NCBI GenBank assembly: GCA_900696645.1
Contig: CAADGV010000025.1
Coordinates: 1-30,665, forward strand
DNA from: an uncultured Chlorobiota bacterium
Lineage (GTDB): Bacteria; Bacteroidota; Ignavibacteria; UBA10030; UBA6906
Reading direction: 5' to 3'
Length of the DNA: 30,665 nucleotides
Shown here: positions 3,922 to 28,663 of the stretch, piece after piece
Layout: every line of letters begins with the position of its first letter
How positions within the stretch are numbered: position 1 is the stretch's first letter
Made by a program: the position numbers and the translations under genes
Notes under the pieces: generated by a model
Seen by the model: only the letters and a program-made list of their open reading frames with translations
What the model was told of the DNA's origin: nothing
The model's database searches: none

Positions 3922-4326
3922 ATGAAAAAGGTATATATCGAAGGCAAGCTTTGTATCGGGCCAAACTTCTCAAAAGCCGAGTTTGCTCTCATTAAGCGTA
4001 ACCTTATTGAGCAGAAAGGCCTGGCAACACTCGCTGATTTGCTGAACGCCGCGGGCAACACCCAGCGTCTGAAAATCCTCTATCTTCTCCACGCCCACAA
4101 AGAGATGTGCGTGTGCGACCTCGCCGAAGTTCTTGAACTGACCGACTCGGCAGTATCACAACACCTCCGCAAGCTCAAGGACAAGAACGTCGTTAAGGCG
4201 AGACGCCAGGGACAGACGATATTCTACTCTCTCGTGCCCAACATCTTCACCTCAAACCTTGAAGACATGTTTGCAATGGATGAAACCAAGGAACAGCATT
4301 CGTTCATGCACAAGGAGATTGTATAA
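3922..4326 (+). CDS. ArsR/SmtB-family metal-responsive repressor of the mer operon
   Basis: A 134-residue winged-helix regulator. The core (about residues 35-105) contains LADLLNAAGNTQRLKILYLL, the metal-sensing segment E-M-C63-V-C65-D-L, and the recognition helix TDSAVSQHLRKLKDKNVVKA, followed by the wing RRQGQTIFYSL. Another cysteine lies at C11. The CVC pair in helix alpha-3 is the usual thiophilic metal or metalloid site of ArsR proteins, so mercury or arsenic binding would release DNA. ATG 3922 is preferred because GGAAG lies five bases upstream; an in-frame TTG at 3877 would read through the operator. The stop overlaps the next start (TAATG). Mercury operons usually carry MerR; an ArsR-type controller is the less common plan, and the ligand is inferred from the neighbours. 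Confidence 0.85.
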   Translation: MKKVYIEGKLCIGPNFSKAEFALIKRNLIEQKGLATLADLLNAAGNTQRLKILYLLHAHKEMCVCDLAEVLELTDSAVSQHLRKLKDKNVVKARRQGQTIFYSLVPNIFTSNLEDMFAMDETKEQHSFMHKEIV

Positions 4327-4931
4327 TGGAACAGACAAAGATTACAGCCGTTGGGTCTGTCCTTGCAGCCATTGTCGCTTCACTCTGCTGCATTGGCCCT
4401 GTCGTCGTGGCCCTCATCGGCGTCGGCAGCATCGGCGCGTTCACCGCTTTTGAGGCATTTCGACCGTACCTCATCGGGCTGACCACAATCTTTCTCGGGT
4501 TTGCTTTCTATCTGACATATCGAAAGCGAGAAGTGATGTGCGAAGACGGAAGCTGCAAGATTGAAAGTGCCGGCAAGTGGAACAAGATCAGCGTCTGGCT
4601 GGCAACGGTTGTGGCTGCACTTGCACTTGCGTTCCCCTATTTCAATATCGCTTCAACGCAGATCACGAATGACACGGTAGTGCCGGAGGCGAGGATTGTG
4701 CTGCAGATTGATGGCATGGATTGCAGAGCGTGCGCAGCGGGTTTGCAGGCTACACTTGCAAGGCTCGAAGGAGTCCATAAGGCAACCGTGGACTATGAAA
4801 AGAGCCAGGGAGTCATCGAATATAACCCGGCAACAGTTCAGCCGGGAGATTTCATCAACCAGATCGACGAGGCAGGCTTCAAGGCTGTTGTTGTCGAGTC
4901 CAAGTCCGTGACGCCATCAGAAACAAAATGA
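4326..4931 (+). CDS. merTP: MerT-MerP fusion, mercuric ion transport protein
   Basis: Inner-membrane Hg(II) importer fused to its mercury-binding domain. Residues 1-110 are MerT-like: helix 1 carries the vicinal pair C21-C22 (SLCCIGPVVV), helix 2 includes FRPYLIGLTTIFLGFAFYLT, a cytoplasmic loop has C72 and C77, and helix 3 is about 88-106. Residues 122-190 form an HMA/MerP ferredoxin-like domain with G-M-D-C133-R-A-C136. In separate systems MerP is periplasmic; here the third helix would place the domain outside the cytoplasm beside the transporter. The ATG overlaps the regulator stop by one base. MerTP fusions are a known variant in Bacteroidota-like mer operons, so the identification is firm. 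Confidence 0.9.
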   Translation: MEQTKITAVGSVLAAIVASLCCIGPVVVALIGVGSIGAFTAFEAFRPYLIGLTTIFLGFAFYLTYRKREVMCEDGSCKIESAGKWNKISVWLATVVAALALAFPYFNIASTQITNDTVVPEARIVLQIDGMDCRACAAGLQATLARLEGVHKATVDYEKSQGVIEYNPATVQPGDFINQIDEAGFKAVVVESKSVTPSETK

Positions 4932-4943
4932 AAAAGGATCTTC

Positions 4944-6611
4944 ATGTCTGAGAAAATGTATCTCACTCTTCGTGTCGACGGAATGACATGTGATAGTTGT
5001 GCTCGTCATGTGACAGCGGCATTGAAGGGTGTACAGGGTGTAGAGGACGCGGATGTTGGCAACTGGAAGGACAGCAAGGCACGTGTCGTTGTTCGTGAGA
5101 CAGTTGACGAGCAACGCTTGCTCGAAGCAGTAAGAAATGCCGGCTATCGGGCCACCGTTCGGGAACGGAAGGGTTCGGGTGAAAGGCAGCAATCTCCGAA
5201 AAAGAATGATACTGATTACGACGTCATCATTGTTGGGGGAGGCTCTGCAGCATTCGCCGCGGCACTCAAAGCGCGCGAACTGGGAAAACAAGTCCTCATG
5301 ATTAACGATCGTTTGCCTCTCGGCGGCACGTGCGTGAATGTCGGCTGCGTCCCATCCAAAACACTGATACGGACAGCGGAAGCTTTTTATCACACAAACC
5401 ATACAAACTTTGAGGGTATCATAACCAACGGCAGCACACTGGATTTCAAGACAGTCGTGAGACAAAAAAGAGAACTTGTTGCATCTCTGCGTAGCAATAA
5501 ATATGTCGGCATCATAAAAGACGACCCTAATGTAACCGTCATCAAAGGCCGAGGCAAACTTCTTGACAAGAACAGCGTTACGGTAAACGGCAAGACGTAC
5601 ACGTCACAGTATATCTTGATCGCGACAGGATCAACGACGTTTGTTCCGGATATCCCCGGGATTGAAAAAGTTCCGTACTTGACGAATGAGACATTGTATG
5701 AACTCAACAACCTGCCTGAACATGTTATCGTCATCGGCGGGCGCTACATAGCTTTAGAGAATTCCCAGATGCTTGCCCGTCTGGGCGCGAAGGTTACCCT
5801 TCTGCAACGATCACACAGAATCCTGCCTGAGGAATTGCCGGATGTTACTGAAACGCTCACCGAGTTTCTGAAAGAAGAAGGGATAGAAGTAAGAACCGAC
5901 GTTGCTGTTCAATCCGTAGCAATGGTTGGCAAGAGCATCGTTGTGAACGCTACTTTGGACGGTGAAGAACAAGCAATCCAGGGCAGTCACCTGTTTATCG
6001 CCACAGGAAGAAAAGGCAACACAACACAATTGGGATTGGAAGAGTCAGGCATCGCTACACACGGGAAAGGGTTTGTTGCCACTGATGAGTTCTTGAGAAC
6101 GACCGTGCCGAATGTTTTCTCCGCAGGCGACGTGACGGGCCAGCGCTTGTTCGTGTACACCGCTGCGTACGAAGGGGCGCTTGCTGTTGAGAACATGTTT
6201 GGCGAAAACCTCAGAGCGAAGGACTACCACCCGCTTCCGTGGGTGATCTTTACCGACCCGCAGGTTGCTGGCGTCGGACATGATGAGAACTCGGCGTATG
6301 CTGCCGGAATAGATTACGAGGTCTCCGTCATGCCGTTGTCGGAAATCCCACGCGCCCTCGCCGCAAGAAACACAAAGGGCTTTATCAAACTCCTCAGGAA
6401 CAAAGCCGACGAAACCCTCATCGGAGCGCGTATACTTGCCAGTGAAGGGTCTGAACTGTTGATGGAGGTTTCACTCGCGATGAAATACGGCATTACAGTA
6501 AACGACCTGAAGCACATGTTCCATCCGTACCTGACTCTCTCGGAGGGAATAAAACTCGCAGCGATTGGTTTTGATAAAGATGTGGGTAAGCTCAGTTGCT
6601 GCGCGGTATAG
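4944..6611 (+). CDS. merA: Mercury(II) reductase with N-terminal HMA domain
   Basis: Cytoplasmic flavoprotein that reduces Hg(II) to volatile Hg(0) with NADPH. An HMA domain (about 5-72) has G-M-T-C16-D-S-C19. The FAD-binding start DYDVIIVGGGSAA is at about 91-103. The redox-active disulfide is G-G-T-C130-V-N-V-G-C135-V-P-S-K. The NADPH-binding fold begins at about 260, and a second FAD motif is TVPNVFSAGDVT. The dimerisation domain contains the mercury-site tyrosine in HPYLTLSEGIKLAA and ends in the vicinal cysteines C552-C553 (LSCCAV) that hand over Hg. All catalytic elements are present at full length (555 aa). One variation is GGRYIALE where many relatives have a third glycine. The gene is twelve bases after merTP. 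Confidence 0.96.
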   Translation: MSEKMYLTLRVDGMTCDSCARHVTAALKGVQGVEDADVGNWKDSKARVVVRETVDEQRLLEAVRNAGYRATVRERKGSGERQQSPKKNDTDYDVIIVGGGSAAFAAALKARELGKQVLMINDRLPLGGTCVNVGCVPSKTLIRTAEAFYHTNHTNFEGIITNGSTLDFKTVVRQKRELVASLRSNKYVGIIKDDPNVTVIKGRGKLLDKNSVTVNGKTYTSQYILIATGSTTFVPDIPGIEKVPYLTNETLYELNNLPEHVIVIGGRYIALENSQMLARLGAKVTLLQRSHRILPEELPDVTETLTEFLKEEGIEVRTDVAVQSVAMVGKSIVVNATLDGEEQAIQGSHLFIATGRKGNTTQLGLEESGIATHGKGFVATDEFLRTTVPNVFSAGDVTGQRLFVYTAAYEGALAVENMFGENLRAKDYHPLPWVIFTDPQVAGVGHDENSAYAAGIDYEVSVMPLSEIPRALAARNTKGFIKLLRNKADETLIGARILASEGSELLMEVSLAMKYGITVNDLKHMFHPYLTLSEGIKLAAIGFDKDVGKLSCCAV

Positions 6612-6751: not shown

Positions 6752-7288
6752 TCAGTACCCGTTCAACGACCAGTCATACGACTTGTAGCTGATCTTCCAT
6801 TCTCGCGGGTTCTGGAGTATCTGTCGCGACAGAGAATCGGGAAGGAACCGCGCAACAGACTGCAACACCTTCTCGTCGGAAGATCCGAAGTCGCTGTCAT
6901 ACCAACTGAAGATCTTCGCCCAGACCGTCGTCTTGAGTACCGAACCGATAATCAATCCTCCTGAGTGAAGGTCGTTGATGCTTTCAACCAGAAAGTTATC
7001 GCAGATGACCTTCAAAGTGTATGCGTTGTACGTATTGATCCAAAAGGCCAGCTTTTCATTTTCACCCGGTAGAGTGTCAGGGTCAGTCTTTGCAAGCCAG
7101 CCAATGTACTCGGCGAGACGTTTGTCGAATCTCATCTCCTTATAGTTCACGACGCCATCATGAACGTAGGAAAGGATTTCTGAAAAGAGACCGTGTCGAT
7201 GATTTGGCTGCGCCGGGACATTCTCCGCCGCAACAAAGAGGATCCCGTTGAGAATGAGTATCAACAAGCGTGTTCCGATCTGCCTCAT
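6752..7288 (-). CDS. DUF547 domain protein with internal deletion
   Basis: Exported protein of the DUF547 family (function unknown). From ATG 7288 it has a signal segment (LLILILNGILFVAAENVPAQ). The first half of the domain includes EKLAFWINTYNAYTLKVICD and SGGLIIGSVLKTTVW. The end of the domain includes IFSWYDSDFGSS and WKISYKSYDWSLN. The central block that normally lies between TTVW and the xxWYxxDF segment, with the conserved HFALVCAS...CPP cysteine region, is absent. The two parts are joined in frame near 6917-6922. Length is 178 aa, against the roughly 250 or more usual for secreted members. The start overlaps the ArsS gene stop as ATGA, so it is co-translated; a longer frame from 7342 lies wholly inside that gene. 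It is probably non-functional unless the deletion is an assembly artefact. Confidence 0.8.
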   Translation of the reverse strand: MRQIGTRLLILILNGILFVAAENVPAQPNHRHGLFSEILSYVHDGVVNYKEMRFDKRLAEYIGWLAKTDPDTLPGENEKLAFWINTYNAYTLKVICDNFLVESINDLHSGGLIIGSVLKTTVWAKIFSWYDSDFGSSDEKVLQSVARFLPDSLSRQILQNPREWKISYKSYDWSLNGY

Positions 7289-8259
7289 TTCACGACCGCT
7301 CCGCCGCAACTGCTTCCCGCTCCGGCAGTGCAGCCGTAACAATGTGAGCCGAATACAATCCTGCGCTCCAAAAGTTTGTCAAAGTTGAAATTCCAGATTG
7401 TATCCGGCGCTCCGTGGTTCACTCGCCATTCAAGCATCTGGTTAAAATCACAATCGTACAACGTCCCGTCATACCCCACGCTGATCAAACTTCTGCACAT
7501 TACTCCTTCTGCGGCCGTCGGGTTGAATGCGTTTATCAACTTCTCCATGTAGGACTCATACAACTCCGCCCGCTCAAGAAAATGCTTGAATCTGTTGATG
7601 GGCATGTTGGTAATGACGTACAGCCGGTTGAACGTGATGTTGTATCGCTTCCCTAACTCATCCTTGAATTGCTTCTCAATTGCTCCTTGCTCCGGCGGCA
7701 GGTACGCTCCCACAGGATTGTAGATGAGGTTCAGCAGGAGCCCGCTTCCGTCTCTTCCGTATCCAAGGGCATTAAGCTTGCGCAGCGATTCAAGGCTCTT
7801 TGCAAACACACCCTGGCCCCGTTGTGCATCGGTCTCATGTTCCTGGAAATACGGCAAGGAAGAGATTACCTCGCACTGATGATCACGGAAGAATTCGGGA
7901 AGGTGCTCCATGTTTTTACCGCTCACCGGGTGCGGGTCCAACGTCACGGTGAGGTTGTGCCGGACCATCACGTGTCTGCTGAGTGCCCTTGCCTCTGTGA
8001 CGAAATACTCAAAATGGTCATTCAACTCCGGGGCGCCGCCTGTGATGTCGAGATTTGTGATTTGAGGGTACAGACGAAGGATTTCCAGACAACGATCAAT
8101 GGCGGATTTATCCATCATTTCTGTGCGCTTCGGGCCGGCATCCACATGACAATGTTTGCACGCCTGGTTACAGAGCTTGCCGAGGTTTACCTGAATCGTG
8201 TCAATGCTGAGCGGACGTAGATTCAGGCGCGCTTCGGCTACGGTTTGTTCAAATACCAT
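7285..8259 (-). CDS. arsS: Radical SAM/Cys-rich protein, ArsS-type (arsenosugar biosynthesis family)
   Basis: Radical SAM enzyme of the family annotated as arsenosugar biosynthesis protein ArsS. The 4Fe-4S/SAM motif is C30-x3-C34-x2-C37 (CNQACKHC), followed by DITGGAPELN. The C-terminal half is DUF3641-like, with SVGYDGTLYDCDFNQMLEW and a cysteine-rich tail H-C307-Y-G-C310-TAGAGSS-C318. Some relatives carry selenocysteine in this tail; here the codons are ordinary cysteines. Length (324 aa) is typical. ATG 8259 has AAAGGA seven bases upstream. No ArsM methyltransferase is in the window, so a full arsenosugar pathway is not shown here. The DUF547 gene is translationally coupled downstream. Confidence 0.88.
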   Translation of the reverse strand: MVFEQTVAEARLNLRPLSIDTIQVNLGKLCNQACKHCHVDAGPKRTEMMDKSAIDRCLEILRLYPQITNLDITGGAPELNDHFEYFVTEARALSRHVMVRHNLTVTLDPHPVSGKNMEHLPEFFRDHQCEVISSLPYFQEHETDAQRGQGVFAKSLESLRKLNALGYGRDGSGLLLNLIYNPVGAYLPPEQGAIEKQFKDELGKRYNITFNRLYVITNMPINRFKHFLERAELYESYMEKLINAFNPTAAEGVMCRSLISVGYDGTLYDCDFNQMLEWRVNHGAPDTIWNFNFDKLLERRIVFGSHCYGCTAGAGSSCGGAVVK

Positions 8260-9546: not shown

Positions 9547-10380
9547 TTACTTGGGGTCCCGCGTTGAATCGAGAATATGTTTCAAAAGATCGGGCCTGTC
9601 TGTTTCGATTCCATCGACGCCAAACCCTATTGCCTTCCGCATTGTCTTTTCATCATCAACTCCCCATGCAACCACCTTGTATCCGCGTCGATGCGCCTCT
9701 TCAACGAAGGAGGATGACAAGAGAAGATAATGCGGTTGAAGGTATTCAGCATCAACATCAAACACACTCCCAGCAGAAACCCCCGTCCCGACAATGAGAT
9801 GCATCCAGGGAATCCTGAACGCGTACACAAACAGCCGCGGAATATCCGGCGCCAGGTTCTTGAAGTGTTCAATCACTTCCATCTCAAATGATTTGAGAAT
9901 GATGTGCCGTTGCTTGCCGCTTTCAACGATCTTCTGCACGAGTTGTGCCTCAACGCTTCCGTCATCGGAACTCCCTTTCAGCTCTGCAATCAGAAGAAGG
10001 CTCGAGTCAAGCAACGCGAGAACTTCCTCCAACGTCGGGATTTTCTCACCGGCAAATCTTGCGTCAAACCAACTGCCCGCGTCGAGCGTACGCAGTTCGG
10101 AGAGTGTTTTCTCTGCAACTTTCCCCTTGCCGCTTGTTGTCCGATTGACGGTTGCATCGTGCATGACAACAAAGTGGTCGTCCTTCGTCGCCCGCAGATC
10201 AATCTCCAATACATCAATCTTCATTGCTATGGCGGCACGAAATGACGCGAGAGTGTTCTCCGGTGCAACCAGCGGCGCTCCCCTGTGTGCAATGATGTGC
10301 GGCTCTGACTGTTGTTGTCCCGAAGCCGAAGCGGTGAGCAGAATGATTATCAAACCAATAATGGAATACCGACTCTTCAC
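9547..10380 (-). CDS. Glycerophosphodiester phosphodiesterase, exported
   Basis: GDPD-family TIM-barrel enzyme that hydrolyses glycerophosphodiesters to glycerol-3-phosphate and an alcohol. Visible motifs are IIAHRGAPLVAPENTLASF (catalytic H-R and metal-binding E-N), VLEIDLRATKDDHFVVMHD (metal ligands E/D and second catalytic H), then TTSGKG, and near the end GVDGIETDRPD. An N-terminal signal (SIIGLIIILLTASASGQ) indicates export. Length, 277 aa, fits bacterial GlpQ/UgpQ-like enzymes. The start is GTG 10380, with GAAGG upstream. It is preceded by a 310-base gap with strong secondary structure, so it may have its own leader or promoter. Confidence 0.9.
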   Translation of the reverse strand: MKSRYSIIGLIIILLTASASGQQQSEPHIIAHRGAPLVAPENTLASFRAAIAMKIDVLEIDLRATKDDHFVVMHDATVNRTTSGKGKVAEKTLSELRTLDAGSWFDARFAGEKIPTLEEVLALLDSSLLLIAELKGSSDDGSVEAQLVQKIVESGKQRHIILKSFEMEVIEHFKNLAPDIPRLFVYAFRIPWMHLIVGTGVSAGSVFDVDAEYLQPHYLLLSSSFVEEAHRRGYKVVAWGVDDEKTMRKAIGFGVDGIETDRPDLLKHILDSTRDPK

Positions 10381-10690: not shown

Positions 10691-11203
10691 TTAGGGTGAC
10701 TTCGCCCCATATTGGAGTTGCAGAAGCCGGTTCGCATTTTTGCGGAGAGTAAGAATGAACATCCTGTCGAATTCCGTGCCGCCGATTGTTGGAGGCGGGC
10801 TAAAGCCAAACGCTTCAATGATTTGCGGAACAGTATCAGAGTGCCCGACGACAAGCAATTTCTGCCCCGATCGCGAGCGAAGCGAATCGACAAGACGCTG
10901 CGTTTCGGCTAAAGGAATTTGAACGAGCGGCAACGAATGGGCGACCCTGAGAGACTCTGCGGTTTGCTGCGTTCGCAATTTTTCGGTTACGAAGATCGTC
11001 TGGATCCCGGCTGAATCGAGGGCATGCCTGAGGGCGCCCGCTCGCTGAAATCCCGGCAGCGAAAGCGGAGTCGTATCAGTGTTGTTCAGCCGTTCGGCAT
11101 GACGCACAAGAACGATGGTTGTCACTGTTGATGAACAACATCCGCCGAGGATGAGAGACAAAACCACCAGCGCCGCCAGAATTAGAGAAGCAGAATCCTT
11201 CAT
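10691..11203 (-). CDS. Histidine phosphatase superfamily lipoprotein (SixA/PGM-like)
   Basis: The N-terminal signal ends in a lipobox (LILGGC, then CSS), so the mature protein is probably lipid-anchored at cysteine. The phosphatase core starts with IVLVRHAERLN, carrying the R-H-A/G-E catalytic motif. It continues with LSLPGFQRAGAL, the TEKLRTQQTAE segment (arginine ligand), and LLVVGHSDTVPQII with the second catalytic histidine. Length of about 170 aa fits the small SixA-like members. ATG 11203 is chosen because AGGTGA lies about five bases upstream; a GTG at 11212 abuts the preceding gene. It follows the Lgt-like gene directly, so both are likely one transcript. The substrate is unknown. Confidence 0.85.
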   Translation of the reverse strand: MKDSASLILAALVVLSLILGGCCSSTVTTIVLVRHAERLNNTDTTPLSLPGFQRAGALRHALDSAGIQTIFVTEKLRTQQTAESLRVAHSLPLVQIPLAETQRLVDSLRSRSGQKLLVVGHSDTVPQIIEAFGFSPPPTIGGTEFDRMFILTLRKNANRLLQLQYGAKSP

Positions 11204-11212
11204 GATCTTCAC

Positions 11213-12076
11213 CTATTGTTGTACAACGGCCGGTTGCCGGACAGAAAAGCGATCACGCTTCGTTGCAAACGCATAGCCTGCAACTGCTGCGCTGCATACA
11301 AAAATGATCAACGACATGAGTTGACCCGTCGAGAGAACTCCGATAAACCCGCGGCTCACATCTCCCCGGAAGAATTCGATGCTGAAGCGCAGAAGCGAGA
11401 ACGCCATCCAATACAAACAAAACAACGTTCCGGCAGGCAATTCATATCGACGCCATAGCTTTGTGAATACGATGAAGAGTGCAAGGCCTTTCAAAGAGCC
11501 GTAGAGTTGAACCGGATGAATGGGCAGCGAAAGTGACGCAAGCGGATCGATCAAGCCCTCCTTCACTTGCGCGGCAAAGGGAAAGCTCCCGTGAGGAAAT
11601 GACACCCCCCACGCAACAGAAGTCAGCGTTCCGTAATCATCGCCGTTGAGAAAACAACTTATTCTCCCGAAGAAGATTCCGATTCCGGCACAACTTGCAA
11701 TCACATCAAGATACCGAAGGGCCGGTTGGCGTTTCAGTCTGAAACAGATGAGAAGAGCGGCAGTTCCGCCGATGTAGGCTCCCCACGAAACAGTCGCCCC
11801 GTTCAAATCGAACAGCATGGAAGGATTGAAGAGAACCCGATCGTAGTGGGTCAGAAGGAAAAACAAGCGCGCCCCGATCATCCCACCCAACGTTCCCCAA
11901 ATCACGCCGCCGAGAGCATGATACCGGGAGAGGCCCTCTTCGCTGCTTCTGCGCACGAAGAGAACTGCGCACACAGCAATAGCAACGGCATACACGAACG
12001 CCGGATCAGGAACGAGGTACGAGAATATATTCGTGCCGAATGTCGCGTTCAGGCTTTCAACGATCCGCGGACGCAC
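11213..12076 (-). CDS. Divergent prolipoprotein diacylglyceryl transferase (Lgt) homologue
   Basis: Polytopic membrane protein of the Lgt family, which moves diacylglycerol from phosphatidylglycerol to a cysteine thiol. About seven hydrophobic segments are visible. The family signature region reads FGRISCFLNGDDYG: the arginine is kept, but the usual GNFxNxE pattern is changed (Cys for the first Asn, Asp for Glu). The HPxxLYE-type box reads HPVQLYGS, lacking the glutamate. RFSIEFFRGD matches the C-terminal R-x-x-x-E-F-x-R motif. Length, 287 aa, is normal. The start is GTG 12076, inside the last 20 bases of the M36 peptidase gene, so translation is coupled. The altered residues suggest a paralogue with a special substrate rather than the housekeeping enzyme. 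Confidence 0.8.
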   Translation of the reverse strand: MRPRIVESLNATFGTNIFSYLVPDPAFVYAVAIAVCAVLFVRRSSEEGLSRYHALGGVIWGTLGGMIGARLFFLLTHYDRVLFNPSMLFDLNGATVSWGAYIGGTAALLICFRLKRQPALRYLDVIASCAGIGIFFGRISCFLNGDDYGTLTSVAWGVSFPHGSFPFAAQVKEGLIDPLASLSLPIHPVQLYGSLKGLALFIVFTKLWRRYELPAGTLFCLYWMAFSLLRFSIEFFRGDVSRGFIGVLSTGQLMSLIIFVCSAAVAGYAFATKRDRFSVRQPAVVQQ

Positions 12077-14453
12077 GGGCAGATTCTTTCTGCTTGATCA
12101 TTCTGCGCCAAACGGCTGCGCCGAGCAGTGGTATCAGAGTGATCAATGCAAACGGTTTCGGATTTTCCCTTGCAGATGCCGAGCACGCACACTCGCATTG
12201 CCCGCTTTCGTTAATTACGGCTCTGCCGGGCGGCCTTACTCCGCCAAACCCACTGCGACGGATGTTGCCACCTTCGTTATTCGTTGTCGTCAGGCGATAG
12301 AAGAGTTGATCCTGCATTCTCAGTGTGTTCCAGTTCGCGGCGGGAATCTGCCATGCGGCTGTTCCGCCTGCACCGGCAACAATCCCTCCCTGCGATCCGC
12401 TGGAAATGAGATTCACCGTAAATGCCTCGTCATTCGCCACTTCAACGATAAAACGCGTATTGAACGGCCTGTTTGTCTGGTCGGCATTGTCGCCGCTGAA
12501 CGTGTAATCACGTCCCGTCCAGACCGTAAACGTCGGACCTGCGGCATCATTCCGATCCAAGAAATCATCGTTGATGTCGATGACAGCTTCCCTGTCCTCC
12601 AGGAACATGCCAGCCCGCGCAAAGCCGCTGAGTACTTTATGTATTGAACGCGATGAGTCGTACCGCGGGACAAGTTGTTGCATGAGATTCAGGAAGGAGT
12701 CGTGCACCCGCCTGTGTGTCATACCGTTCAGAACCCCGACACCCGCTTGCGCCATAGCCGCAATAAGATTGAAGTTCATGCTGAATGCGCCTATCGCACT
12801 CTCGTCGAGCAGTTCCTGCCGTCCGTTCCAGAGAGCCCAGCAGATAATCTGGCCGTTGCTGTGGGGAAAACCATCTCCGAAATTCACGATATGTTCGGGG
12901 AAAATGTCCAATGCCTCGGCTTGCCGCGGCACGAAACTGCTTTGCACGGGAGCGGCACAATTTCCCGCCCAGAATGCTCCGAAGGTGTCGGTATTGAAAT
13001 TGGTGTTTGCCCAATAGTCGGCAATGCCTTCGTTGATTGATCCGATGATCGTGCCGCCTGCCGCATTGTATTGCAGACGATTGAGAAGATGGCCGAATTC
13101 ATGAGCAATAACCGTGGCATCAATGGCCGAGTTGAAGAAATCATTGCATGTTGCGGCGGTTCCCGTGGTTGCCGATCCGATGCCGAATGTGAGCGAATTT
13201 GTTCCGCTTGCACAGGCATTGTTGATTCCGAAGCCGCACGGATTGTTGTGGTTGACTGTTGCCGTGATGAACGGGAATGCCTGACTTCCCCACGCCTCGT
13301 AGTTCTTTCTCATCTCATGCACCCACGCGAAGACGTTCACTTCCTGAAAGCGCGAGTTGTAGTTCGTTTGATTCGTTCGGTTTACAACAGTGCCGTTAAT
13401 CGGATTCACATTGAAGTTCGCCTCGCCCGAACCCGACGCAATCGTTAGGTCGCCCGTACTCACGCCGTCGGCACCGTTGTTGTTCACATCCAGAACATTA
13501 TTCAACCGCAGCCGGTACTGATTGCCGGACGGGGCATCCACTTCGAACGTCAGCTCCCGCGTGCCCGCGTTCGGGCTCGGATTGAACACGAGCCCTCGAG
13601 CAGCGTCAAACGAGAACAACGGCTCAAGCTGCAACACATTGCCGTTATCGGCATCCACCCAAACTTCATACGGACCGTCTTCCGCGGAGATTTCCATCTT
13701 CCACGCGTACTTCAGGCCCGAGCCGTACGGCAGTATTACCTTCTTCGGGGGAACGGAAACACCGGTTGATTTCGAAGTCTTGTTGATATGCTGCTCGGCC
13801 GCTTGTTGTGCCCGTGCAGCATCGAGCCGTTCTCTGTTCGTGATATTTACAGTATGGAAAACACGCCCTGACAGCGACGTGACCATCCCCGAGCGAACGG
13901 TTGCTACAATCCCTGCATCTTCTATCTTGATTCCCCGAAAGAGCTGGTCGAACACAAACGCCTCCGACGGACGGTTCATTTGTTTACGGAGATCGTTCGA
14001 AAACTCGCCGATTGCCTCCTCGGTTGCCTTGTTGATTTGACCGAACCGGCCCTTGATACGCCGCCGTGTTGTATCCTCCATCATCTTGATCTCCCGTTCC
14101 ATCATTTCGCTGTTGGCCCGACGCGGCGGAACAACTTTGAAGTATCTCAATTCCTCCGCAGGACGTTTCCAGTTTATGCTTGAGAGCACGGCTTCCACAA
14201 CCGAGCGGACTTCTTCCTGTTTTCCTCCTGTTTTTGCGTTGTCGGATGACAGCGTCAGGCTGAAATAGTCTCCATCAAACATCGGCAACGTGCCGGTGCC
14301 TTGGTACGCCACAGCCCGAGCATCAAGCTCAAGCTTGCTTCGATCAAGGGGCGGAGTATAAATTGGAGTGACTCTGTACGGCACTTGAGTAAATGCCTGG
14401 TACACAGAGACAAAAAGAAGGCCGGTGAGCAGGAAACGATGGCGGGTGCGCAT
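12057..14453 (-). CDS. Secreted M36 (fungalysin-type) zinc metallopeptidase with Cys/TM/Arg C-terminal tail
   Basis: A signal peptide (FLLTGLLFVSVYQAFTQ) is followed by a propeptide with FTP/PepSY-like features up to about residue 290. The M36 catalytic domain has the zinc motif H451-E-F-G-H455 and the downstream ligand in NEGIADYWAN (E475). A beta-rich segment follows to about 740. The last ~48 residues comprise GQCECACSA (C753, C755, C757), a hydrophobic stretch PFALITLIPLLGAAVW, and RRMIKQK. This tripartite tail resembles MYXO-CTERM/GlyGly-CTERM-type sorting signals rather than the type IX domain of the other secreted proteins here. ATG 14453 has GAGAGGAG seven bases upstream and matches the signal peptide; a longer frame from 14513 lacks both. 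The end overlaps the Lgt-like gene. Confidence 0.88.
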   Translation of the reverse strand: MRTRHRFLLTGLLFVSVYQAFTQVPYRVTPIYTPPLDRSKLELDARAVAYQGTGTLPMFDGDYFSLTLSSDNAKTGGKQEEVRSVVEAVLSSINWKRPAEELRYFKVVPPRRANSEMMEREIKMMEDTTRRRIKGRFGQINKATEEAIGEFSNDLRKQMNRPSEAFVFDQLFRGIKIEDAGIVATVRSGMVTSLSGRVFHTVNITNRERLDAARAQQAAEQHINKTSKSTGVSVPPKKVILPYGSGLKYAWKMEISAEDGPYEVWVDADNGNVLQLEPLFSFDAARGLVFNPSPNAGTRELTFEVDAPSGNQYRLRLNNVLDVNNNGADGVSTGDLTIASGSGEANFNVNPINGTVVNRTNQTNYNSRFQEVNVFAWVHEMRKNYEAWGSQAFPFITATVNHNNPCGFGINNACASGTNSLTFGIGSATTGTAATCNDFFNSAIDATVIAHEFGHLLNRLQYNAAGGTIIGSINEGIADYWANTNFNTDTFGAFWAGNCAAPVQSSFVPRQAEALDIFPEHIVNFGDGFPHSNGQIICWALWNGRQELLDESAIGAFSMNFNLIAAMAQAGVGVLNGMTHRRVHDSFLNLMQQLVPRYDSSRSIHKVLSGFARAGMFLEDREAVIDINDDFLDRNDAAGPTFTVWTGRDYTFSGDNADQTNRPFNTRFIVEVANDEAFTVNLISSGSQGGIVAGAGGTAAWQIPAANWNTLRMQDQLFYRLTTTNNEGGNIRRSGFGGVRPPGRAVINESGQCECACSASARENPKPFALITLIPLLGAAVWRRMIKQKESARASADR

Positions 14454-20826: not shown

Positions 20827-23046
20827 CTAACGCATCAGAATCATTCTTCTCGAAGCCGAAAATTCACCCGCCTGCAAGCGATAGATATACACGCCGCTCG
20901 CAAGATGGCTCGCATCGAACTGTACAGACTTGGCTCCTGTACCCTGAACCTCGCCGACCAGCGTCGCCACTTCGCGACCAAGCACGTCAAACACCTTCAG
21001 TGAAACAAATCCCAAGTCCGAAGCCTCAAATCCCAGTTGGCGATTGGAATTTGGTATTTGGTATTTGATAGTTGTTGTCGGATTGAACGGGTTGGGGTAG
21101 TTCTGATATAAGGCAAAACCTGATGGCAGATTTTGGTCTGTCGCTTCAACCGAAGTAATCAGGTCACTCAGCGGCCTCCTCCAAACTCCCAGATTTCCAA
21201 CAGTGGCAAACAGATGGGTACTGTTTGCCGCAAGCGAAAGTACTGATAGCTGTCCCGGCAGACCTGTGCTTACCGGGCTCCAACTCGTGCCCGCATTTGT
21301 GGACAAGAGAATCGGTTCGTTGCTGGCAACTGCTGCAAAGAGATTTGTTCCTACAGTTACAAACGAAGTCACTGAGCCACCCATGAACCCGTTGTTAACT
21401 TGTGTCCATGTGACTCCGACGTCTGTTGATTTAAAGAAGCCGTCAGGCTGATCGGCACCTGCAAAGATAGTATTCCCCAACGATGCAAAGGCATTGACGG
21501 AAGAAAATCCCGGCAAGCCGCTGTCACTTGGAGCCCATGTAGCTCCGAAATCAGTCGAGCGATAGATTGCCGCCGGGTTGAGCACATTCGCTGAGGTTCC
21601 GGCGAAGAGTGTTGTTCCGTGAGCATGCAATGCCTTGAAATAGGGAGTCGGTAATCCGGCATTGACGGATTCCCAAGAGTTGCCATTGTTTGATGAGCGG
21701 TAAATACCTTCAGTGAGGGTGGAAACAAAAAGAAAGTTGCTTGTTCCGCTGTTTATCCGAGCGAGAGACGATTGTTGCGCATATCCGTATGAAGTATCAA
21801 CCATAAGTCCGCCGTTCACCTTACCCCAAGTTTGTCCGTCATTTGTAGAACGATATGTTCCAAGTCGGCGAGTGCCGGCAAACATATCCGTTTCGGTCAC
21901 CAAAAGAGCTTCCGTTATTCGTTCTATTCCAAAAAGAGAATCTTCACAGAAACCTGTATTGCGTTCTACCCACGTGCTACCATTGTTCGTCGTGGCATAC
22001 ATCCCGCCAGACAGGATTGTACCTGCAAGAATGGTTTCTCCCCTCGATGCAAGTCTATTCGCAAAACTATTGAACATTGTATTCTGCAGCGGAATCCAGT
22101 TGTTCCCTCCATCCGACGACCGGAAGACACCACTGGTATATGTACCTGCAAGGAAATCGGAACCAACGGTCGTAAGAACATGGACAGTCCGGTTCGTCAA
22201 GCCGTTTTGGATCGGCTGCCAGTTCGCTCCCACGTTTGTTGACCGAAAAACTTCGTAACCTGGCCATCCCGGAAACAAACCACTTGCAAGCATGGTTGTG
22301 TCACTTCCAACCACACGCGCTATTAAATCGAATATCTGGGCAAGTGGATGCAGCAATTCCCTTGTCCACGCAGTGTCGGACAAGCGTCGCATGTGGATAC
22401 CATTGGCACCGCCTGCTACATGAGTTCCTGTTCCGGCAAAGAGTCGGTCTCCAACCATCAAGAGAGATGATACTGCCATAGGCGAGCCGCTCAGTGGTGT
22501 CCATGTCATCCCTTGATCAGTTGTTTGCATAATACCGGTCTCCCCGCCGGCAAAGACCGTCGTGCCGGATACAGCAAAGTCATGGGTCCAATGGTTACTC
22601 AACGATATCTCCCAAGTAATTCCATTATCGGTGCTATGCTCGATTCTGTTTTCTTCCGCAGCATAGATAACTCCGTTTGCAACGAAGAGTTTCTGAATAT
22701 TGAAAAACGGACTGTACGCTACAGCCCACTCGTTACCATTGTTTGTTGAGCGATAGATTTTGTTGAACGACGACGCGAACACGGTGTTTCCATTCCTGGC
22801 AAGCGAAAAGATGTCCTCCGGCATGTTGAAAGGAAATCCGTTGTTCCGTTGTTGCCAGATTGACCCGCCGTTCGTGCTGTACCAAATGCCTTCTCTCGTT
22901 CCAACCATAATGTCGGATCCGAATGTCACTATGTCCCTGACTATCGCTCCGCCGGGTCCCGCCGTTTGGACCCACTGGGCATGCAACGGAGTAGCGATAG
23001 CAAGCAGTACAGTCAACACCAAAATCGTTTTGCGTTTCCCGGTCAT
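20827..23046 (-). CDS. Secreted BNR/Ycf48-like propeller protein with type IX sorting domain
   Basis: A signal peptide ([18 protein letters not shown]) precedes about twelve repeats of the type [27 protein letters not shown] and [13 protein letters not shown]. These are the Asp-box/BNR-like turns of a beta-propeller (Ycf48 or sialidase/sortilin-like). The C-terminus (about 650-739) is the type [45 protein letters not shown] and [13 protein letters not shown], ending in MILMR. It is therefore probably carried across the outer membrane and displayed or released. No catalytic residues are evident. Within the CTD a ~15-residue insert ([15 protein letters not shown]) sits before VSLKVFD. ATG 23046 has GGGAG five bases upstream. 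A palindrome shared with the response-regulator gene lies upstream at 23181. Confidence 0.87.
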
Positions 23047-27035: not shown

Positions 27036-28517
27036 CTATCGCAATAATAAGAGCCTTTTTGTCTGCATAAACTCGCCAGCCTGCAGTCGGCAGAAGTACG
27101 TTCCGCTCGGCAACCCCTCCGCGTTGAACGTCACCTCGTAATTCCCCGCTTGCAGTTTGTCGTTTACTAACATTGCGACTTCGCGGCCGAGAAGATCGTA
27201 CACACGTAGGGATATTACAGGTAACTGCCCTACTACAGATAAGGGTATTGAAAATGTGATCGTCGTAGTCGGATTAAACGGGTTGGGATAGTTCTGATGA
27301 AGCACAAATGATGTCGGAACGTCTGCCGTATAGCGAACACCGGTTGTTTGAACCGTTCCCCTTTTCATGAAGATGTCACACACAACAACAGAATTCCTCA
27401 CGGCACCCGGTGAATAGGTAACGGCTATCTCGCCATTTCCTCTTGCGGCAACAGTCGATGTGTTTCGAGTGACGTACTCAGGCGTCAGGTCGAATATCAA
27501 CGACGGATTAGTAAAGATGCCGTCCTTCCCGTGAACAAGAAACCATCCGCGGGCGGAGGCGGCGAGACTCGATTGGTATACAACGAATACAGTACCTTCA
27601 TCATCCACCGCAAAATTATGATAGCCTCCGGGACGTTGCCCGGATGTTGAAACAGCAACCGGCGTTTCGAAAGAGCCGGAGGCGTTGTTGATCAGGTACA
27701 GCACTTCGTTTGGCGAGTTTCGATAGAGAATATGCACTGTGTTGTTCTTGTCAACCCTCACCCTCGGATAGTCAACATCAACGGTTACGCCCGTCGGGGT
27801 TTCGACCAGCGAACCGGTTCTGTTCGTATAATACTTCATCGGGCCGCCGAATGCTGAGCCCGACTTCACGACGATGTGAACAAATCCCGATGTATCGACG
27901 GCAATCCCTGAATCAAAATCGCCGGTGACACCGGCTTCGAACAATAGTTGTTCAGCCGACAGCGACGAATCTCTGAGATTGAACCTTCGATAATAGGCGT
28001 GCTGAGTGCCGGTTGGCGGAAATGTGTGATACACAAAATGCAGAACGCTGTCGCGCCCAATGGCGCACATTGGCGTTGCTTTGTTTAAGCCCGCCGTTGT
28101 AATAAGAATCGGAGTTGTGAACGTGTTACCGTCCAGCCGGGTATATTGCACCTGAAACAGATTCCCTGCATCACGCCCGAGAAAACCGATATGTACATTG
28201 TCATTCTTATCAAGAACAATTGTCGGGTAGTTATCATCAACAAGGTTTGTGGTTACCTGCTTTGTTATGAATGTGTTGGCACTGTCGGTTACGTAGTAGA
28301 TTTCCCGCGTAGTAGAGTTTGTTCCGGATTGGCCCGAATAGACGATGTGAATGTTCCCCTGCGAGTCAAATGCCATACTTTGCCTGTTGTTGAACTTATC
28401 GTTGTAAGCAATTGTATCCTGCGGAAAGTTCAATTGCCAGGCACCTGCAGGCGCGTACATCCAGAGTAGAATAAGTAGGGCCCCCTTTCGATGGAGTCTT
28501 CTTAAGTACTGAAACAT
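27036..28517 (-). CDS. Secreted repeat protein with type IX sorting domain
   Basis: A signal segment (GALLILLWMYAPAGAWQ) is followed by a repeated motif of the kind SMAFDSQGNIHIVYSGQSG, PTIVLDKNDNVHIGFLGRDA, GIAVDTSGFVHIVVKSGSAF and RVRVDKNNTVHILYRN, about 55-60 residues apart. This D-x-x-G/N-x-(V/I)-H-(I/V) pattern suggests a propeller of the sialidase/BNR-like superfamily. No active-site set is recognised. The final ~95 residues are a type IX CTD ([53 protein letters not shown]) ending in LLLLR. Start ATG 28517 has GAGG about seven bases upstream; a longer frame from 28538 lacks this. A strong terminator follows. Probable role: extracellular or cell-surface binding protein. Confidence 0.87.
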   Translation of the reverse strand: MFQYLRRLHRKGALLILLWMYAPAGAWQLNFPQDTIAYNDKFNNRQSMAFDSQGNIHIVYSGQSGTNSTTREIYYVTDSANTFITKQVTTNLVDDNYPTIVLDKNDNVHIGFLGRDAGNLFQVQYTRLDGNTFTTPILITTAGLNKATPMCAIGRDSVLHFVYHTFPPTGTQHAYYRRFNLRDSSLSAEQLLFEAGVTGDFDSGIAVDTSGFVHIVVKSGSAFGGPMKYYTNRTGSLVETPTGVTVDVDYPRVRVDKNNTVHILYRNSPNEVLYLINNASGSFETPVAVSTSGQRPGGYHNFAVDDEGTVFVVYQSSLAASARGWFLVHGKDGIFTNPSLIFDLTPEYVTRNTSTVAARGNGEIAVTYSPGAVRNSVVVCDIFMKRGTVQTTGVRYTADVPTSFVLHQNYPNPFNPTTTITFSIPLSVVGQLPVISLRVYDLLGREVAMLVNDKLQAGNYEVTFNAEGLPSGTYFCRLQAGEFMQTKRLLLLR

Positions 28518-28663
28518 CTTAACCTCGAAATTATTCAAATGAAAAAAAGATTACTGCACATACAATTTACAATCCTAATTCCTGAAGCTCAAGAAAAATG
28601 AAGCGAACGTCATGCCCAATCGGGGAACGACACAACAGAAATCTCGATATGAAGCGGGACAGA

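Follow-up and report, generated by a model that had tools for sequence, protein, structure and literature searches.

The question raised by this locus is whether a secreted peptidase, which ends in a cysteine motif, a hydrophobic helix and a basic segment, is the substrate of the Lgt homolog encoded directly downstream. Lgt, the phosphatidylglycerol:prolipoprotein diacylglyceryl transferase, normally lipidates the N-termini of proteins. The original prediction proposed that in this case the C-terminal cysteines of the peptidase are modified. It was made for a window of 30,665 nucleotides (the whole stretch of DNA analyzed), and the coordinates, gene order, 20-base overlap and tail sequence that it gave for the pair were reproduced in our analysis. 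The features of the locus are:

9547–10380, minus strand: glycerophosphodiester phosphodiesterase (PF03009, 169.1 bits)
10691–11212, minus strand: predicted lipoprotein of the histidine phosphatase superfamily (signal LILGGC; PF00300, 33.6 bits, cut-off 21.7)
11213–12076, minus strand: Lgt paralog gene (287 aa), overlapping the peptidase gene by 20 b
12057–14453, minus strand: metallopeptidase gene (ORF encoding a secreted protein of 798 aa)
12087–12107, minus strand: RRMIKQK, basic segment 3′ of the helix (from the sequence)
12108–12158, minus strand: hydrophobic segment KPFALITLIPLLGAAVW, likely transmembrane helix (from hydropathy)
12183–12197, minus strand: CECAC, three Cys ahead of the helix (from the tail alignment)

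The peptidase and its C-terminal tail

Alignment of 11 homologs of the peptidase revealed a type I-like N-terminal signal peptide without a lipobox Cys, and a gluzincin signature (HEFGH...NEGIAD in the window) of which HEFGH and NEG.AD are invariant. A PepSY/FTP propeptide region was also recognized (Pfam PepSY, 8.2e-5; FTP, 0.0038; both slightly below the curated cut-offs). The protein had initially been labeled an M36 peptidase, but the full-length peptidases matched no M36 model of Pfam or NCBIfam; it is instead weakly M4-like, with model NF047971 weakly matching 9 of the 11 homologs (best 2.8e-5). A search of solved structures with the peptidase gave no match at E 0.001, and its AF2 model (mean pLDDT 46.6) was unusable.

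The tail of the peptidase (GRAVINESGQCECACSASARENPKPFALITLIPLLGAAVWRRMIKQKESARASADR) is composed of GQCECACSASA, the hydrophobic helix and RRMIKQK. Across 12 peptidases, whose tails are 42–98% identical to that of the window, the invariant pattern is G..C.C.ASA...A...P...R. The last two Cys of CECAC (CxC) are conserved in all 12 homologs and the first is replaced by Lys in the Bacteroidota members, so that CxC appears to be the core of the motif. The hydropathy of the helical segment is 1.62 over 17 residues in the window and 1.6–2.3 in the homologs; the basic end, expected to be cytoplasmic, is retained in every aligned tail. When 437 distinct C-termini of long ORFs were screened for a Cys-TM-RR pattern, only these peptidases were picked out. 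The tail is not a chance feature.

One strong tail match per genome was obtained in 12 of the 14 genomes tested; none was found in the other two, G011 (70% complete) and G129 (a single 4.09-Mb chromosome record). Neither phmmer nor a profile search detected further tail proteins in the window's own genome. Two other secreted proteins of the window (20827–23046 and 27036–28538) carry type IX tails, as had been predicted.

The Lgt paralog and the housekeeping enzyme

The assignment of the overlapping downstream gene to the Lgt family is certain: its product matches PF01790 with 141.9 bits (cut-off 24.9), and its AF2 model matches the crystal structure of E. coli Lgt (5azb; E 5.5e-9, TM 0.69). 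The score with the lgt equivalog model TIGR00544 is below the cut-off (100.9 vs. 118.9 bits). The paralogs form one clade apart from the housekeeping Lgts (support 99/99), and dN/dS values of 0.13–0.16 among the three nearest members indicate purifying selection.

The second, canonical lgt for which the original prediction suggested a search is present. The window's genome (4.2 Mb, 100% complete) contains exactly two PF01790 genes, of which the separate housekeeping lgt, located on contig C7, scores higher than the paralog. Another, better-scoring Lgt is encoded in all genomes with the peptidase/paralog pair except G127 (a 3.6-Mb MAG). The candidacy of a Gemmatimonadota clade member, with lspA nearby, as the sole Lgt of its genome was rejected, since two other Lgts are present there.

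In the 14-member alignment of the paralogs, the equivalents of E. coli R143, N149, G154, R239, E243 and R246 are invariant (R143, G154 and R239 correspond to R138, G149 and R230 of the window's protein), and those of R73 and D129 are also kept. A role in holding and activating phosphatidylglycerol has been proposed for R143 and R239 (PMC4728403). Y26, H103 and N146, essential in E. coli Lgt, are absent: Y26 is replaced by Pro25, H103 by Trp98 or Phe (Trp98 in the window's protein) and N146 by Cys141. E151 is changed to Asp or Cys, and E202 is also replaced. Features that distinguish the clade from the housekeeping Lgt of the window's genome are Trp/Phe-Gly-[Ala/Val]-Tyr in place of the HGGL motif (part of the peptide site as proposed by Mao et al.; PMC4728403), Pro25 in place of Tyr26, NG[DC]DYG, and HPxQLY[GLC] replacing HPxxxYE.

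The changes at the signature Asn, Glu and HPxxLYE positions, initially taken as signs of altered function, are real, but the substitution of Asn by Cys, like the loss of the HGG His, is common to the genome's own housekeeping Lgt, which has Cys at the signature Asn and Tyr at the position of E. coli His103 (GCHLSGDGDYG, LTWYGGF). Cys146 and Tyr103 also occur in Ignavibacteriae housekeeping Lgts, and a 2026 survey reported natural Lgts with N146C and H103Y/W/F (PMC13251419). The argument for a new function based on the Asn change is therefore weakened; the change of the HGGL motif and the loss of Tyr26 are more telling.

Since the equivalent of Tyr26 is replaced, activity of the paralog is not assured. 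The protein might be inactive as a transferase, or use another lipid, and act as an insertion or anchoring partner of the peptidase, with CxC, common as a redox or metal motif, forming a disulfide or metal site. The replacement of Tyr26 and Glu202 and the altered HGGL motif fit this explanation. We nevertheless consider it highly improbable, given that the active-site arginines and the head-domain network of Lgt are invariant, that the gene is under purifying selection, and that natural Lgts with Cys146 and Trp/Phe/Tyr103 exist, among them one from L. interrogans that partly complements E. coli (PMC13251419).

Co-occurrence of the peptidase and the paralog

Scanning of approximately 85,000 species genomes, plus G001, identified 13 further close relatives of the paralog; a second copy in G120 is the fifteenth clade member. 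The records are labeled Ignavibacteriae, Calditrichota/Calditrichaceae, Prolixibacteraceae, other Bacteroidota and Gemmatimonadota, along with one “Deltaproteobacteria” MAG, which may be mislabeled; its locus is very close to that of Calditrichaceae.

A tailed peptidase is encoded directly upstream of the paralog, on the same strand, in 12 of the 15 clade members (the window counted), with gaps of −20 to +320 b. One of these pairs (L040) lies on a contig carrying only the last 104 residues of the peptidase. The paired loci come from Ignavibacteriae, Calditrichota and Bacteroidota records. The search of relatives for the tail, recommended in the original prediction, thus located it in 12 genomes of several lineages, always on the same peptidase and beside this Lgt subgroup. 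Searches of genomes sampled evenly across the phylum detected the paralog (395 genomes), the full-length peptidase (395) and the tail (326) in the same two, G000 and G001, and in no others. In the order to which one Prolixibacteraceae member belongs, the peptidase was present in 1 of 295 genomes, that of the member itself. The distances among the enzymes correlate with those among the peptidases (Mantel r 0.965, 0/5000 permutations). The co-occurrence is real and specific, and is what the hypothesis of C-terminal lipidation predicts.

Three clade members (L047, L048 and L131) have no such peptidase adjoining, so that the Lgt clade extends beyond the pairing. In the tree, where within-clade support is moderate, these three do not group together as one outgroup to the paired members; on that tree, the pairing would have changed at least twice. 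The number of independent events is small, because only a few lineages carry the pair, and its two genes may have spread together.

The L131 copy (L131:6426–7283) is the second paralog-clade member of a Calditrichaceae genome; it has the signature CFLNGCCYG and is flanked by lipoprotein genes on the opposite strand. A separate Lgt group was noticed in the Prolixibacteraceae genomes G123 and G124 (L134:5236–7044 and L135:6139–7908), whose ORFs of approximately 600 aa combine an N-terminal Lgt domain, with a GCC-type signature, and a C-terminal region resembling an outer-membrane barrel or secreted domain.

Only one relative of the peptidase was found outside the tailed set. This distant homolog (G361, L138:6725–9484; partial match, E 1.4e-47) lacks the C-terminal Cys tail and has an N-terminal Cys signal, FWGCEKEE, in which the Cys precedes EKEE, as in the surface-export signals of Bacteroidota lipoproteins. 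Its genome contains no match to the paralog. As a single case, it would fit a swap of the anchoring end with respect to the tailed peptidases.

Neighboring genes

The lipoprotein gene reported to follow the paralog encodes the predicted histidine-phosphatase superfamily lipoprotein, and lies directly downstream. It occupies the third position in the loci of Ignavibacteriae and Calditrichota and is absent from those of Prolixibacteraceae. Outside the window, the glycerophosphodiester phosphodiesterase gene is retained in no locus other than that of the near relative G001, and is therefore probably not part of the system.

This arrangement bears on a second explanation, in which the paralog is an accessory N-terminal lipoprotein transferase, e.g. 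for the histidine-phosphatase lipoprotein, and the tail serves just as a membrane anchor or is acted on by other enzymes. Consistent with this, the downstream gene of Ignavibacteriae has an N-terminal lipobox, the unpaired L047 is followed by a gene for a predicted N-terminal lipoprotein metallopeptidase, and the presence of two lgt genes in one genome is a known and common situation (PMC13251419). However, the Prolixibacteraceae loci contain the pair with no such lipoprotein adjoining, and the constant joint presence of tailed peptidase and paralog is left unexplained, which makes an accessory role of this kind unlikely.

Several other features of the neighborhoods were recorded. The Calditrichota third-gene histidine phosphatase (L038:9141–9674, L039:3369–3893) ends in HLCPCSE, a CxC without a helix, which may be linked to the tail's CxC or may be due to chance. 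Two Prolixibacteraceae loci carry, upstream of the pair, genes for Cys-rich proteins with a HEMGHxxxLxHD metallopeptidase motif (L042:2181–3140, L044:1732–2691); a papain-like peptidase is found at a similar position in other loci of this family. Homology of the downstream metallopeptidase of L047 with these HEMGH proteins was unsupported (best E 0.47). Within the window, positions 4326–6611 encode first a MerT-like transporter and then a mercuric-reductase-like flavoprotein, both with an HMA domain, likely a mercury resistance pair, and positions 7285–8259 encode a radical SAM protein with a C-terminal DUF3641 domain, of a family often linked to arsenosugar synthesis.

Proposed mechanism

In our judgment, the Lgt paralog is probably a dedicated enzyme that lipidates the C-terminal Cys of the adjoining peptidase, the two forming an enzyme-substrate pair. 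The peptidase would be exported by Sec via its N-terminal signal peptide, and its C-terminal helix would act as a stop-transfer sequence in the inner membrane, leaving CxC just outside and the Arg/Lys end in the cytoplasm. The paralog, with the phosphatidylglycerol-site Arg kept and the acceptor-side motif changed, would then move diacylglyceryl or a similar lipid to CxC, where one or both of the invariant Cys would serve as acceptor. The peptidase would retain a C-terminal lipid anchor, and the helix might be removed by a protease from another locus. This order (export, lipid transfer to Cys, optional cleavage) agrees with the published MYXO-CTERM model, where a predicted Lgt-like enzyme is drawn and lipidation precedes cleavage (PMC11980579).

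If correct, this would extend lipoprotein anchoring beyond N-termini and show that the acceptor specificity of Lgt can be redirected. The linkage across distant bacterial groups suggests a dedicated machine for back-end lipid anchoring, the step proposed in the related MYXO-CTERM pathway, and one Lgt paralog with a single tailed substrate offers a compact two-gene system with no background of many tailed proteins.

Comparison with known sorting systems

The tails of the peptidases resemble MYXO-CTERM in having a Cys motif, a helix and an Arg-rich end at the C-terminus. With model TIGR03901, the tail of L042 scored 20.6 bits (cut-off 20) and nine other tails scanned scored 12.7–19.4 bits; the window's own tail gave no match, and a search of the window's genome gave only chance-level matches. 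CPBP proteases are encoded in all 14 genomes, with four genes in that of the window, but these are generic CPBPs: Mrt_core, used to detect myxosortase, was above the cut-off in none of the 14. An Lgt-like acyltransferase has been proposed for MYXO-CTERM proteins, the cognate enzyme being called unidentified and Lgt being named the leading candidate by analogy only (PMC11980579).

These data are relevant to a third explanation, according to which the housekeeping Lgt lipidates the tail as a MYXO-CTERM-like signal, a CPBP protease cuts it, and the paralog performs a later or different lipid step. Besides the TIGR03901 scores and the four CPBP genes, it can draw on the finding that MrtX processed TraA in E. 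coli, whose sole Lgt is its own (PMC11980579). Since no tail was found in the absence of the paralog, and no CPBP reached the myxosortase cut-off, this course of events is quite improbable, and lipidation by the paralog itself remains the preferred interpretation.

In MYXO-CTERM proteins, as proposed here, the Cys outside the inner membrane would be lipidated. The two-gene pairing of enzyme and target is like that of MrtJ/JDVT-CTERM (PMC11980579); however, the adjoining enzyme is an Lgt paralog here and a CPBP protease in both the MYXO-CTERM/MrtX system and the MrtJ/JDVT-CTERM pair. MYXO-CTERM also differs in having dozens of targets per genome, compared to one here, and in its hosts (Myxococcota, as opposed to Bacteroidota, Ignavibacteriae and Calditrichota records).

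Tails of this type and the Lgt family are both already known; no description of a dedicated pairing of an Lgt with a C-terminal tail was found in the literature searched. The paralog shares with canonical Lgt the fold, the family and the equivalents of R143/N149/G154/R239/E243/R246. It differs in belonging to a separate clade, in the replacement of Y26 by Pro, of HGGL by [WF]G[AV]Y and of E202, and in being coupled to a protein that has a C-terminal Cys tail and no N-terminal lipobox. With chances that we regard as about even, it represents an Lgt-family enzyme re-aimed from an N-terminal lipobox to a C-terminal Cys motif, with inverted membrane orientation and one dedicated substrate. This would constitute a pathway for C-terminal lipoproteins and provide a candidate for the type of enzyme performing the MYXO-CTERM lipidation step. 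The GlyGly-CTERM/rhombosortase system likewise employs a C-terminal tripartite sorting signal, which keeps secreted proteases on the cell surface; there, a Gly-Gly motif is matched with a rhomboid protease (rhombosortase), whereas here a Cys motif is matched with an Lgt-family enzyme.
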